This document shows positions 971-44,633 of a stretch of 48,758 bases of DNA, one piece after another. Position 1 is the first letter of the stretch, and each line of letters opens with the position of its first letter. Both the position numbers and the translations under genes were made by a program. A model generated the notes under the pieces. It made no database searches. It was not told where the DNA came from and saw only the letters and a list, made by a program, of their open reading frames with translations. This DNA is from Acidimicrobiales bacterium (GTDB taxonomy: Bacteria; Actinomycetota; Acidimicrobiia; Acidimicrobiales; GCA-2861595). The stretch covers positions 1-48,758 of the forward strand of contig JAUJNQ010000004.1 of assembly GCA_030448025.1 (NCBI GenBank), written 5' to 3'.

Positions 971-1046
971 GGTGGCCGTAGCTCAGCCAGGTTAGAGCGC
1001 CAGGTTGTGGCCCTGGAGGTCGGGGGTTCAAGTCCCCTCGGTCACC
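971..1046 (+). tRNA. tRNA-His(GTG)
   Basis: Full cloverleaf. The acceptor GTGGCCG (972-978) pairs with CGGTCAC (1039-1045). G at 971 supplies the extra G-1 of tRNA-His, opposite C73 at 1046. The anticodon loop contains GTG. The T arm GGGGG-TTCAAGT-CCCCT is intact. CCA is not encoded. Confidence 0.95.
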
Positions 1047-1077
1047 CGCATCCCCGCCAGTAGAATGCTCTCCGGCG

Positions 1078-1149
1078 GCGCCTCTAGCTCAACGGCAGAG
1101 CAACGGACTCTTAATCCGCAGGTTCAGGGTTCGAATCCCTGGGGGCGCA
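1078..1149 (+). tRNA. tRNA-Lys(CTT)
   Basis: The acceptor GCGCCTC (1078-1084) pairs with GGGGCGC (1142-1148), with a G-T wobble at the sixth pair. The anticodon loop CTCTTAA gives CTT, which reads AAG lysine codons. The T arm CAGGG-TTCGAAT-CCCTG is perfect. It lies 31 bases after tRNA-His and 34 bases before the lactate dehydrogenase gene, on the same strand. Confidence 0.95.
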
Positions 1150-11964: not shown

Positions 11965-12038
11965 TGGAGCGGGTGACGGGTGTCGAACCCGCGTCACCAG
12001 CTTGGAAGGCTGGAGCTCTACCGTTGAGCTACACCCGC
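11965..12038 (-). tRNA. tRNA-Gly(TCC)
   Basis: On the minus strand the acceptor GCGGGTG pairs with CACCCGC. The anticodon stem CCAGC/GCTGG encloses CTTCCAA, giving TCC, which reads GGA. The T arm GCGGG-TTCGACA-CCCGT closes with one G-T pair. The discriminator is T at 11968, and CCA is encoded at 11967-11965. It is downstream of tRNA-Pro on the same strand, 21 bp away. Confidence 0.95.
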
Positions 12039-12059
12039 AGATGGGTGAAACCGTAGCCG

Positions 12060-12133
12060 TCGGGGAGGGGGGATTCGAACCCCCGGCCTCCTGCCCCCAA
12101 AGCAGGCGCGCTACCAAGCTGCGCCACTCCCCG
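12060..12133 (-). tRNA. tRNA-Pro(TGG)
   Basis: The acceptor CGGGGAG pairs perfectly with CTCCCCG. The anticodon stem CCTGC/GCAGG encloses TTTGGGG, giving TGG, which reads CCA. The T arm GGGGG-TTCGAAT-CCCCC is perfect. The discriminator is A; CCA is not encoded. It is a different isoacceptor from the GGG fragment at 736-781. Confidence 0.95.
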
Positions 12134-40970: not shown

Positions 40971-41747
40971 GTGTGCCGCCTCCTCGCCTATCTGGGCCCA
41001 CCCGTCAGCCTGCAGCGCCTCCTCTTGGAGCCACCGCACTCCCTGCTCCATCAGTCCTTCGCGCCGCGCCGGCAGCGCCATGGCACCATCAACGCCGACG
41101 GCTGGGGGGTCGGGTGGTACGACATGGACCGGCGGAGCGAACCGGCCCGTCACCGCACGCCCCGACCCATGTGGGCCGACCGCTCCTTCGCGTCCTGGTC
41201 CGGACTGGTGGGCTCGTCCGCGGTGCTGGCCGCCGTCCGCAGCGCCACCCCTCCGGCGCCGGTGGAGGAGAGCGGCACGCCTCCCTTCACCGCCGGGAGC
41301 TGGCTGTTCGCCCACAACGGGGCCGTCGAGGGATTCAGGACCGAAGTGGGGGCAAAGCTGCGTCGTCTGGTCTCGGACCGCCGCATGGCCGGCGTGGAGG
41401 GAGCCAGTGACTCCGAGCTGCTCTTCGCCCTGGTCCTCGACCACCTCGACCAGGACGCGTCGGCCGGTGAGGCCCTTTCCGAGGTCGTTCGCAGCGTGCT
41501 CGAGCTCACGTCGGCTCGGCTCAACCTGGTTATGACCGATGGGCGGTGCATCGCCGCCACAGCGTGTGGGGACTCCCTTTGGGTTCTCTCGGACGTGGGC
41601 CTGGCCGAGGGTGGGTCCCTGGTGGCCTCGGAGCCCTGTGACGACGAGCCCGGCTGGCAGGTCGTACCGGACGGGTCCCTCGTGGCCGCCACCGCTCAGG
41701 AACTGTCGGTGACGGGCCTCCGTCGGCCTGCGACCACGCTGCGATGA
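40971..41747 (+). CDS. egtC: EgtC, class II glutamine amidotransferase-like hydrolase
   Basis: 258 residues from GTG 40971. The N-terminal nucleophile is Cys2 ('MCRLLAYLG'); 'HGTINADGWGVGWY' and 'WLFAHNGAVEGF' are the Ntn-hydrolase blocks. EgtC removes glutamate from the gamma-glutamyl-hercynyl-cysteine sulfoxide made by EgtB. Its presence implies the gamma-glutamylcysteine route and hence an egtA gene elsewhere. It overlaps egtD by four bases. Confidence 0.93.
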   Translation: MCRLLAYLGPPVSLQRLLLEPPHSLLHQSFAPRRQRHGTINADGWGVGWYDMDRRSEPARHRTPRPMWADRSFASWSGLVGSSAVLAAVRSATPPAPVEESGTPPFTAGSWLFAHNGAVEGFRTEVGAKLRRLVSDRRMAGVEGASDSELLFALVLDHLDQDASAGEALSEVVRSVLELTSARLNLVMTDGRCIAATACGDSLWVLSDVGLAEGGSLVASEPCDDEPGWQVVPDGSLVAATAQELSVTGLRRPATTLR

Positions 41748-42718
41748 CAGGCCGGCGAGGGCTCTCGGTCGACGTCCATCTCGGTCCCGCCGACATCGCC
41801 GCAGCGTTGAAGGGCGACGCCCGTCGTGGGCTCCTGGCCCACCCCAAGGAATTGCCGCCCAAGTGGTTCTACGACGAGTTGGGCTCGCTGCTGTTCGAAG
41901 CCATCACCCGACTGCCGGAGTACTACCCGGGCCGGCGGGAGCGAGAGATCCTCCGTCACCACGCCGGCGACGTGGCCGCCCTCAGCGGCGCCGACACCGT
42001 GGTGGAGCTGGGGTCGGGATCGTCGGACAAGACGCGGGTACTGCTCGATGCGATGGCTGGGGTAGGCCTTCGCCGGTTCGTTCCCTTCGACGTCAGTGAG
42101 GTGACCCTGCGCTCGGCGGGAGCGGCCATCGCCGGCGCCTATCCCGGGGTCGAGGTCCAAGGAGTGGTGGGTGACTTCGAGCGCCATCTCGGAGTGCTGC
42201 CGAGCGGCGGTCGGCGACTGGTGGTCTTCCTCGGCGGGACCATCGGCAACCTCCTGCCTGAGCAGCGCAAGGTGTTCCTGACCGAGGTCGCTGCAGGCAT
42301 GGAGCGAGGGGACGCCCTCTTGCTCGGCACGGACCTGGTGAAGGACCCAGCTCGTCTGGTGGCCGCCTACGACGACGCCGTTGGCGTCACCGCGGCCTTC
42401 AACCGCAACGTCTTGGCCGTGCTCAACCGGGAGCTCGGAGCCGATTTCGTACCCCCCCGTTACGCCCACGCTGTCGACTGGAACGTGGAGGACGAGCGGA
42501 TCGAGATGTACCTGCGCTCCATGGGCGATCAGGAGGTTGCCTTGCCGGCGATCGAGACCTCCGTGGCCTTCGCCGACGGGGAGGAGATGCGCACCGAGGT
42601 CAGCGCCAAGTTCCGCCGGTCCGGAGTGGAGGCCGAGCTGGGCAGCGTTGGCCTCGAGGTACAGCGGTGGTGGACCGACGCCGCTGGTGACTACGCGCTG
42701 TCACTGTCGACCCGCTGA
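41744..42718 (+). CDS. egtD: EgtD, histidine N-alpha-trimethyltransferase
   Basis: 324 residues. 'PPKWFYDELGSLLFEAITRLPEYYPGRREREIL' is the characteristic N-terminal block; the SAM-binding loop is 'VVELGSGSSDKTRVLL'; 'VFLGGTIGNLLPEQR' and 'LLLGTDLVKDPARLVAAYDD' are further EgtD signatures. It makes hercynine from histidine with three methyl transfers, the first step of the pathway, although it is last in the operon. The riboswitch region starts soon after its stop. Confidence 0.95.
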   Translation: MTGRRGLSVDVHLGPADIAAALKGDARRGLLAHPKELPPKWFYDELGSLLFEAITRLPEYYPGRREREILRHHAGDVAALSGADTVVELGSGSSDKTRVLLDAMAGVGLRRFVPFDVSEVTLRSAGAAIAGAYPGVEVQGVVGDFERHLGVLPSGGRRLVVFLGGTIGNLLPEQRKVFLTEVAAGMERGDALLLGTDLVKDPARLVAAYDDAVGVTAAFNRNVLAVLNRELGADFVPPRYAHAVDWNVEDERIEMYLRSMGDQEVALPAIETSVAFADGEEMRTEVSAKFRRSGVEAELGSVGLEVQRWWTDAAGDYALSLSTR

Positions 42719-42762
42719 GTGCACCTCGCCGCTCCCGGCCGAGCGAACCATCCGGGCAGAAG

Positions 42763-42780
42763 ATCACCAAAAGTGATACT
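42763..42780 (+). promoter_or_regulatory. Inverted repeat and -10-like box before the riboswitch
   Basis: ATCAC (42763-42767) and GTGAT (42773-42777) form an inverted repeat around CAAAA, running into TGATACT (42774-42780), an extended -10-like box. It could be the promoter of the riboswitch transcript with an overlapping operator. No good -35 box is visible. Confidence 0.4.
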
Positions 42781-42823
42781 CAAGTGCTGACAGTGGCCGC
42801 CCGATGATTGGTGCAAGACCAAA

Positions 42824-42924
42824 CCGATCCCACGAAACGGCAAACCCGGGGAAACCCGGAACACGCAAAGCCACGGGCCTGTAGGAGCACCTCGCTCCCA
42901 AGGCAGCCGAGCTACCGAATGGGG
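42824..42924 (+). promoter_or_regulatory. GEMM-I (cyclic-di-GMP-I) riboswitch aptamer
   Basis: The core matches the GEMM-I consensus as I know it: GGCAAACC, a hairpin CCGGG-GAAA-CCCGG with a GNRA tetraloop (42846-42859), ACGCAAAGCC, a second arm with GCCT/AGGC and GGAGC/GCTCC (42877-42904), then GCAGCCGAGCTACCG. P1 closes with CCCA (42829-42832) and TGGG (42920-42923). A G occupies what I believe is the position (G20 of Vc2) that distinguishes c-di-GMP binders from the cGAMP-binding variant, which has A. It lies directly upstream of a secreted CAP-domain gene. Family call very secure; ligand choice less so. Confidence 0.92.
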
Positions 42925-42930
42925 GCCTCG

Positions 42931-42959
42931 CCCTCCGTGGGTCTTACCAACCTGGAGGG
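42931..42959 (+). promoter_or_regulatory. Predicted SD-sequestering expression platform
   Basis: CCCTCC (42931-42936) is complementary to GGAGGG (42954-42959), the Shine-Dalgarno of the CAP gene. GCCCTC (42930-42935) can alternatively pair with GGGGGC (42921-42926), whose G residues are also used by aptamer helix P1. Ligand-stabilised P1 should free CCCTCC to mask the ribosome site. I therefore predict translational repression by c-di-GMP; this is inference from base pairing. Confidence 0.6.
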
Positions 42960-42967
42960 AAAGAGCC

Positions 42968-43653
42968 ATGAACACCAACAAGAAGTTTCGCATTGCCATG
43001 GGAGCAGGCCTGGCATCGGTGATGGCGCTCAGCGTGGTCCCCGCCCCCGCCTTCGCCGACACCGGCTCGGATGAGTCGAGCTTCGTGAACAAGCTCAACG
43101 GCCTGCGGGCCTCGAAGGGGACTGCGTCCCCTCGGTGTCCACGGGGGCCTGGTGAACATGGCCCGTGGCTGGTCATCGCAGATGGCCTCCAGGGGCTCCA
43201 TCTCACACAACCCCAACATGGCAGCTCAGGCTCCGGGCAACTGGGCCCGCCTGGGTGAGAACGTGGGCATGGGCCCAAGCGTGGACTCGCTGCACAACGC
43301 CTTCGTGGCCAGCCCCTCCCACTACGCCAACATCGTCAACGGCCACTACGACTCGGTGGGCGTGGGTGTGGTGCAGTCGGGAAGCACCATGTTCGTGACC
43401 TTCAACTTCATGGCCACCCAAGCGGCCCCCGCCCCCGCTCCCGTGGCCGTTGCCCACCACTACTTCGCCCCCCCGCCCCCGCCGGCACCCGCCGCTCCGG
43501 CAGCTCGCAGGGTGTCGCAAGGTCCGCAGGCGGACGGTCTGTCGGGTAGTCAAGGCTCGCGCCGTCAAGGGACGCGCCGTCAAGGGACGCAAGGCCACCA
43601 AGGGACGCAAGGTCGTCAAGGCTCGCCGCACGGTGCGCCGGGGTCGCCGCTGA
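42968..43653 (+). pseudogene. Secreted CAP/SCP-domain protein with cationic tail, frameshifted as read
   Basis: ATG 42968 has GGAGGG eight bases upstream. Residues 1-30 are a signal peptide ending 'PAFADT'. The CAP domain starts 'SSFVNKLNGLRASKG', then the frame shifts at a G-run near 43,118 (one extra base) and resumes as 'LRPLGVHGGLVNMARGWSSQMA', 'GENVGMGPS' and 'HYDSVGVGVVQ'. A Pro/Ala linker follows. A second extra G near 43,513 would open a Lys/Arg-rich tail ('VVKARAVKGRAVKGRKATKG') ending at TGA 43651-43653; codon usage favours that frame over the Gln/Gly-rich alternative. Both events are in G-runs, so sequencing error or slippage is possible. Intact, it would be an exported protein binding an anionic surface. 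Confidence 0.78.
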
Positions 43654-43677
43654 CCCCTCCAGCGGACAGGCGACCAA

Positions 43678-43693
43678 GGGGCCTTCGGGCCCC
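43678..43693 (+). terminator. UUCG-loop terminator after the CAP gene
   Basis: GGGGCC (43678-43683), loop TTCG, GGCCCC (43688-43693), followed by GCTTCTT. A short, very stable hairpin 24 bases after the likely stop of the CAP gene and ahead of mca. Confidence 0.65.
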
Positions 43694-43736
43694 GCTTCTT
43701 CGCATCTGGGTCAGAGGCAGGCCCTAACCTGGGCCC

Positions 43737-44633
43737 GTGTTGCCCGAGCCGATGTGCCTCCTCACCGTGCACGCCCACCCCGACGACGAGTCGTCCAAGG
43801 GTCCCGGGACCGTGGCCCGGTACCGGGAGGAGGGTGTGCGCACCGTGCTCGTCTGCTGCACCGGCGGTGAGGAGGGCGACATCCTCAACCCGGCCATGGA
43901 CCGCCCCGACGTGCGGGCCAACCTCCACCAGGTCCGCCTCGAGGAGCTGGCTCGGGCCACGGCGGTGATTGGCTACGAGGAGGTGGTGATGCTCGGCTAC
44001 CGGGACTCCGGTATGCCCGACAGCCAGACCAACGCCCGGCCCGACTGCTTCGCCGCCGCCGAGCTGAACGAGGCCGTTGGCCGGCTCGTGAGCGAGATCC
44101 GCCGGGTGAGGCCGCAGGTAATCATCACCTACAGCGACGACCAGCAGGGGTACCCACACCCCGACCACCTGCGGGTCCACGACATCTCGGTGCTGGCGTT
44201 CGACTGCGCCGGCGATCCCGATGCGTACCCCGGCATCGGCCAACCCTGGCAACCGGCCAAGCTGTACTACACGGTGTGGTCGCGCGACCGGATGATCGCC
44301 ATGCACGAAAAGTTCCTGGAGCTCGGCCTGGAATCGCCCTTCGAGGAGCGGTGGTTCGAGCGGCCTTCCCAAGACGAGCGCATCACCACCCGTATCGACG
44401 TCTCCGGCCACGGCGACGTCCGCCGCCAGGCGCTCCTGGCCCACGCCACCCAGATCGATCCCGACTCGCCGTTCTGGTTCGGCCTTCCGCCTGAGGTGGC
44501 CCGCACCGTCCACCCCTACGACGACTACGTGCTGGCCCGCTCCCTGGTGGAGACCACCCTGCCCGAGGAAGACCTGTTCGCCGGTGTGCGGGAAATGGCC
44601 GGGCCCAAGGTCGGCCCTGGCCAAGGCCACTAG
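43737..44633 (+). CDS. mca: Mycothiol S-conjugate amidase (LmbE family)
   Basis: 298 residues from GTG 43737. The zinc site is 'VHAHPDDESSKGPGTVARY' (His14, Asp17), with the third ligand in 'YPHPDHLRVHD'. 'VCCTGGEEGDILNPAMD' is closer to Mca than to the deacetylase MshB. Mca cleaves mycothiol conjugates so that toxins leave as mercapturic acids, which implies mycothiol in this organism. TAACCT (43725-43730) is six bases before the GTG, so the transcript is probably leaderless; ATG 43752 is a less likely start. Confidence 0.92.
   Translation: MLPEPMCLLTVHAHPDDESSKGPGTVARYREEGVRTVLVCCTGGEEGDILNPAMDRPDVRANLHQVRLEELARATAVIGYEEVVMLGYRDSGMPDSQTNARPDCFAAAELNEAVGRLVSEIRRVRPQVIITYSDDQQGYPHPDHLRVHDISVLAFDCAGDPDAYPGIGQPWQPAKLYYTVWSRDRMIAMHEKFLELGLESPFEERWFERPSQDERITTRIDVSGHGDVRRQALLAHATQIDPDSPFWFGLPPEVARTVHPYDDYVLARSLVETTLPEEDLFAGVREMAGPKVGPGQGH

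Follow-up and report, generated by a model that had tools for sequence, protein, structure and literature searches.

A c-di-GMP-I riboswitch in the genome of an Acidimicrobiales bacterium (GenBank assembly GCA_030448025.1) appears, on balance, to govern at the translational level a CAP-domain protein that is secreted and probably retained at the surface, most likely as an OFF switch at high c-di-GMP. The combination of this aptamer with a CAP gene is a recurrent theme and no one-off. The riboswitch lies in the window, by which we mean the whole 48,758-nt stretch of DNA that was analysed (contig JAUJNQ010000004.1, positions 1 to 48,758, forward strand). The coordinates of its elements and of the gene are collected in Table 1.

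The Rfam covariance model RF01051 matches the window at 42829-42919 (+) over its full length (1-87) with 58.4 bits and an E-value of 5.9e-9, exceeding the gathering score of 35 bits, and this covariance-model check bears out the near-consensus c-di-GMP-I aptamer that an initial annotation, made from the letters alone, had described. A chance match was rejected by the score and by the recurrence of the aptamer in the genome and the order. The aptamer is situated in the 5' leader of the secreted CAP gene, whose ATG (42968) follows 48 nt past the aptamer end, the order from 5' to 3' being aptamer, GC-rich linker, Shine-Dalgarno (SD) sequence and ATG. Before the unit lies an egtD-like gene (41744-42718, PF10017) and after it one for a PIG-L deacetylase (43737-44633, PF02585), and a scan for sigma-70-type promoters gave 0 hits in 42700-43760. 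Elsewhere in the window, four tRNA genes occur in two pairs, at 972-1149 (+) and 11968-12133 (-).

Table 1. Elements of the riboswitch leader and of the CAP gene in the window
Feature	Position	Strand	Basis or remark
Aptamer c-di-GMP-I (GEMM-I)	42829..42919	+	Rfam RF01051
P1 5' strand UCCCA (part of strand 1)	42828..42832	+	Partner 42920-42924
Strand 1, CCCACG	42829..42834	+	Rival partner of CGUGGG; CCAC/GUGG co-occurrence
P1 3' strand UGGGG (part of strand 2)	42920..42924	+	Partner 42828-42832
Strand 2, GGGGGC (anti-anti-SD)	42921..42926	+	May pair with 42930-42935
Strand 3, GCCCUCC, containing the anti-SD CCCUCC (42931-42936)	42930..42936	+	Covariation with the SD
CGUGGG, alternative partner of strand 1	42936..42941	+	Leader comparison and folding
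Strand 4, Shine-Dalgarno GGAGGG	42954..42959	+	Sequence and leader comparison
CAP gene piece 1: ATG, signal-peptide-like start, first CAP residues	42968..43120	+	Frame of 42968
CAP gene piece 2: CAP body and Pro/Ala linker	43121..43514	+	Frame of 42969; ends are the indel places
CAP gene piece 3: cationic tail, stop 43651-43653	43515..43653	+	Frame of 42970
Hairpin GGGGCC-UUCG-GGCCCC 3' of the gene	43678..43693	+	By eye; weak U-tract

With the numbering carried over via the Rfam alignment, the ligand contacts G20 and C92 of Vc2 are taken to correspond to G42839 and to C42915 or C42916, respectively. An A at position 20 is the mark of the cGAMP-binding GEMM-Ib type. The GEMM-Ib RNAs of Geobacter belong to the same fold class, whereas the window aptamer has G, not A, at the presumed position 20 (42839). 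Position 20 is G in 92 of the 96 aptamers found in the order; in the others (L015, L024, L051 and L082) it is A in three and C in one, and among the 96 an A at this position precedes no CAP gene (A in 3/96 overall).

The genome contains four c-di-GMP-I aptamers, three of them before similar CAP genes (L001, the window copy and L003) and the fourth before L004, whose secreted product combines a GH5-like domain (PF00150, 35.9 bits) with a similar cationic VC..C tail in another frame. The window copy and L003 are nearly identical, and L001 is more diverged. L003 is a single open frame of 228 residues comprising a signal-peptide-like start, the CAP domain (PF00188, residues 41-147, 54.8 bits, cut-off 21.1), a Pro/Ala linker and the tail VCRKVRRRTVCRVVK...RRGRR; H80, E97 and H118 are invariant across 10 aligned relatives. 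Five CAP matches were found in the genome, three with an aptamer, and 35 in the six genomes of the family, 14 of them after an aptamer. Querying the genome with the tail of L003 (E up to 1) returned four matches, all in the four riboswitch genes; two of them are strong, the others weak (E 0.099 and 0.59). A tail profile, made from the tails of riboswitch genes and missing those of L001 and L016, likewise had 6/6 hits in riboswitch genes across the six family genomes.

In the window copy PF00188 matches 43131-43451 with 39 bits (cut-off 21.1). The signal peptide, CAP domain, Pro/Ala linker and Lys/Arg-rich tail named in the initial annotation are all present, but they are spread over three frames: compared with the syntenic gene of a sister genome, the CAP frame carries uncompensated indels, net +1 at 43121 and -2 at 43515, and an intact single frame was rejected. 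These two frameshifts had been overlooked, as had the three sibling switches and the tail held in common with the glycosidase-like protein. The sister genome (G005) is syntenic with the window over 8.3 kb at 84% identity and has kept both the switch and an intact CAP gene.

It is rather unlikely, though a reading with some weight, that the window copy is a decaying duplicate in which the switch is intact and the gene a true pseudogene, L003 and perhaps L001 being the working copies. The net indels are confined to the CAP frame: nine other frames in the synteny keep their phase overall, although two hold indels that cancel out and the last is partly covered. None of the 20 GGDEF matches in the genome contains a stop, so that the assembly as a whole is not indel-ridden. 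Against decay, the frames downstream of the window indels are open up to the conserved stop, and the tail-bearing CAP genes of five loci in other genomes (L014, L016, L022, L023 and L085) are unbroken. Moreover, L001, on contig C4, is without the same GT dinucleotide as the window copy at the entrance of the tail, and the glycosidase-like gene L004 appears to shift frame in a C-rich run, both of which also fit consensus errors in similar copies or low-complexity DNA. The tail of the window copy (43510-43650) is a 96% match to that of L003. We lean towards consensus errors in similar copies, over real decay or slippage, as the cause of the frame breaks. Three of the four tail-bearing riboswitch genes (window, L001 and L004) are out of frame, two by the same GT loss. 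The UUCG terminator that had been placed behind the gene was recovered as a hairpin by eye, but its T-run is weak and a terminator scan of 42700-43760 found 0 intrinsic sites.

The aptamer is present in 6/6 genomes of the family and in 43 of 397 sampled genomes of the order. Its downstream genes were scored for two classes, CAP and prepilin: of 96 aptamers, 36 precede CAP genes (22 genomes), 20 type IV prepilin genes (17 genomes) and 40 neither, although downstream classes may be missed at several loci that end soon after the aptamer (e.g. L047 and L050, about 150 nt), and one aptamer (L094, 33.8 bits) falls under the gathering score. The 40 include GH-like, beta-helix (PF13229), matrixin (PF00413) and camelysin-like (PF12389) proteins. 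The initial annotation's switch before a secreted CAP gene is upheld by the covariance-model match and by this recurrence in relatives, and in the sister genome switch and gene are conserved together in synteny. Its view that such a unit is unusual in a high-GC actinobacterium has to be tempered, given the 43 genomes of the order with the aptamer and the larger share of CAP than of prepilin genes behind it. At one locus (L064; G012:C51; 60736, 61582, 62394) three adjacent prepilin genes have one c-di-GMP-I aptamer each; at another (L058) the aptamer precedes a secreted camelysin-like protein (PF12389, barely above the cut-off), which recalls biofilm fibre proteins.

An alignment search of the GTDB collection yielded 259 CAP relatives, of which 80 were kept; a single-protein search of genome contigs, unlike the alignment search, found no relative. 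A c-di-GMP-I or c-di-GMP-I-GGC aptamer lies within about 300 nt upstream in 34/80 of those kept and in 16 of the 20 closest. The 80 partly overlap the order sample and contain a few loci with too little upstream DNA. The labels of the aptamer-bearing relatives include Acidimicrobiales/Acidimicrobiia, Frankiales/Frankiaceae (seven loci), Nitriliruptorales, Egibacteraceae and, in one case, 'Acidobacteria'. The GGC type (RF03167), which is of the same clan, although the window aptamer is called as RF01051, also occurs before CAP relatives at L114 (two of them), L146 and L153.

The leader itself offers two exclusive folds. Region 42800-42990 folds at -70 kcal/mol, compared with -58.4 (sd 4.25) in 200 shuffles, one of which was as low; the fold of lowest energy pairs the SD with the anti-SD. 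The SD-masking pair CCCTCC/GGAGGG of the initial annotation was found at exactly the coordinates given there, and the leader of the sister gene (L014) retains it as CCTCCG:CGGAGG. Also read in the sequence as had been claimed is a helix, CCCACG with CGTGGG, that excludes P1. Either UCCCA pairs with UGGGG and the SD is masked, or CCCACG pairs with CGUGGG and GGGGGC with GCCCUC, and the SD is freer.

We compared the leaders of 34 CAP genes, L001 and L002 being excluded from the leader statistics as near-copies of L003. Twenty-three are long, and 11 are short with a start codon no more than 17 nt past the aptamer. In the long ones strand 1 has two possible partners, strand 2 (giving P1) and, in many leaders, GUGGG; the anti-SD likewise has two, strand 2 and the SD. 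Anti-SD and SD covary: the score of own pairs is 16.78 against 15.18 for swapped ones, matched by 10 of 5000 permutations (start codons of L016 and L045 set by hand). Taken singly, the anti-SD beats shuffles at 0.05 in 3/23 linkers. A 3' GUGG is found in 27 of 37 non-pilin leaders with a 5' CCAC and in 6 of 37 without it (Fisher 7.6e-7; 0.0026 for CAP leaders alone; 0.042 with one leader per genome), figures inflated by kinship among the leaders. Among five control words, an association was also seen for TGGG, a word that shares sequence with this motif, and for none of the other four. In an aligned set of 20 leaders (14 CAP, 6 other) GTGGG is invariant through selection, the set having been picked for that word.

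Covariation was not significant for the strand 2:3 and strand 1:GUGGG helices (469 and 481 of 5000, respectively). For P1 the ungapped test gave 78/5000 in all 34 CAP leaders, 81/5000 in the 23 long and 3669/5000 in the 11 short ones, and the duplex test 15052/20000 in the long (22 of 23 leaders, L053 being out with its 5' sequence missing) and 3518/20000 in the short; the duplex test was significant in the non-CAP, non-pilin leaders only (96/20000). For the CAP leaders P1 covariation is weak or absent in both tests and is not a settled point.

When folds were forced in the long leaders, the unpaired probability of the SD was 0.14 with P1 and 0.57 with CCCAC:GUGGG, with a rise in 20 of 23 leaders and a fall in one; 14 of the 23 have a second helix of at least five pairs, and there SD exposure was raised in 12 and lowered in one. 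Forbidding P1 alone leaves the SD masked (unpaired 0.15 with P1, 0.14 without), the P1-forced and P1-forbidden folds both masking it, and CCCAC:GUGGG is lower in energy in only 7/23 full leaders; for these reasons the masked form should tend to win at equilibrium without ligand. In transcripts ending before the SD, CCCAC:GUGGG wins in 22/22 leaders by a mean of 8.5 kcal/mol, these leaders (14 CAP, 8 other) having been picked for carrying both CCAC and GUGG. The 11 short leaders are without this kind of GUGGG strand; their SD stands directly after the aptamer within the P1 strand and is less accessible in 11/11 with P1 forced, largely by construction.

From these folds we propose a kinetic switch, in which the fold would be chosen before the SD appears and c-di-GMP would tip the choice towards P1 and masking. 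In the c-di-GMP-bound state, P1 would hold strand 2, freeing the anti-SD to cover the SD. In the unbound state, strand 2 would pair with the anti-SD once transcribed, GUGGG would lock onto CCCAC, and the SD would emerge free. The CAP protein would be exported via its signal peptide, and its cationic tail would keep it on the cell surface or within the matrix. With two more CAP copies and a GH5-like protein under like switches, several surface proteins could change together, the changes in c-di-GMP presumably coming from the 20 GGDEF proteins matched in the genome.

The sign hinges on the helix that closes the ligand-bound aptamer, and we regard OFF as the more likely direction. It is favoured because P1 of Vc2 adjoins the ligand site (PMC4744006) and is required for binding, Vc2 being a translational OFF switch (PMC9262584), and because the short leaders place the SD directly behind the aptamer. 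Against it weigh the weak or absent covariation of P1 in the CAP leaders and the binding of Cd1 without detectable P1 (PMC9262584); class I switches of both signs exist, their direction not being transferable between species (PMC6366702). Translation at low c-di-GMP, as first annotated, is thus the direction that we favour as a prediction, the closing helix deciding between the two mutually exclusive folds.

If instead the bound form were closed by CCCACG:CGUGGG with the GGGGGC:GCCCUC hairpin inserted, the SD would be free and c-di-GMP would turn CAP translation ON, as expected for an adhesin. We consider this unlikely, though it draws on several observations: in the comparison of leaders the joint occurrence of CCCAC and GUGGG gives a stronger signal than P1, which is weak in those of CAP genes, the aptamer core is still folded in that conformer of L003, and Bc2 before a collagen adhesin gene is an ON switch (PMC4933901) and Vc1 promotes expression (PMC4744006). 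The inserted hairpin would, however, separate the closing helix from the ligand site, which P1 adjoins in Vc2 (PMC4744006), and in the short leaders, lacking such a GUGGG strand, the SD sits in the P1 strand. That the RNA is a relic without regulatory function, conceivable as C. difficile has only 11 of 16 c-di-GMP riboswitches functional (PMC6366702), is very improbable in view of the 58.4-bit score, the recurrence before CAP genes in 22 genomes and the anti-SD:SD covariation.

Among known systems, Vc2 of Vibrio cholerae (RF01051) is of the translational OFF type; the window switch has in common with it an aptamer that matches the whole Rfam model, a predicted SD sequestration in place of a terminator and a possible P1 by the ligand site. 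The window switch differs from it in driving a CAP-domain gene, in a second helix, CCCAC:GUGGG, common to many leaders of the order, and in that its sign is a prediction. The translational platform fits the preference of Actinomycetota for translational riboswitches (PMC12452182). Bc2 of Bacillus thuringiensis belongs, like the window switch, to class I and also precedes the gene of a surface protein, but it is an ON switch acting via a terminator, and its Cap is a collagen adhesion protein, similar in name and described as a different protein (PMC4933901). Bacterial CAP/SCP proteins (PF00188; PDB 4ifa, 4h0a and 4d53) have the CAP domain in common with the window protein by profile, and the latter adds the cationic VC..C tail and riboswitch control.

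Among the openly licensed papers searched, none brought c-di-GMP riboswitches together with CAP-domain proteins or with Acidimicrobi. Both the class of aptamer and the protein family are known, and it is their recurrent pairing, with a common tail, that appears undescribed within the openly licensed literature searched. Most bacterial CAP proteins are not known to have a defined function. Through a conserved riboswitch, one family of them would be linked, along with type IV prepilins and a number of secreted enzymes, to the lifestyle decision governed by c-di-GMP in an actinobacterial order that is mostly uncultured, which would open a direct route to the roles of these proteins. The paired leaders and their relatives also form a natural series on how one aptamer may drive two translational folds in GC-rich RNA.

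A bolder reading, which we hold to be improbable, is that the cationic VC..C tail is a surface-retention signal exclusive to proteins controlled by c-di-GMP riboswitches, with anchoring made phase-variable by GT slippage. If true, c-di-GMP would decide whether the proteins get made, and slippage whether cells retain them.

Sorted by rules set for this analysis, the C-terminal ends of the 36 CAP genes fall into several types: nine have GDA repeats (one incomplete), eight a C-terminal TM segment, seven a cationic and/or VC..C tail and three an LxxLxxLR-D end, and nine have another or none (one incomplete), a group in which L001 and the window copy are placed solely through their frameshifts. To judge from the sequences, such swapping of putative retention modules behind an unchanging CAP domain suggests proteins that are held at the surface. 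An LxxLxxLRxxD-like end is frequent on CAP proteins that lack the cationic tail, being seen by pattern (L045, L060 and L068) and by eye (L027, L031, L041, L043 and L061), and is perhaps another sorting or docking signal. Repeats like YWLVASDGGIFGFGDARFHGS follow the CAP domain at L008, L018, L021, L025, L030, L033, L034, L053 and L057; on L008 Pfam names the CAP domain alone.
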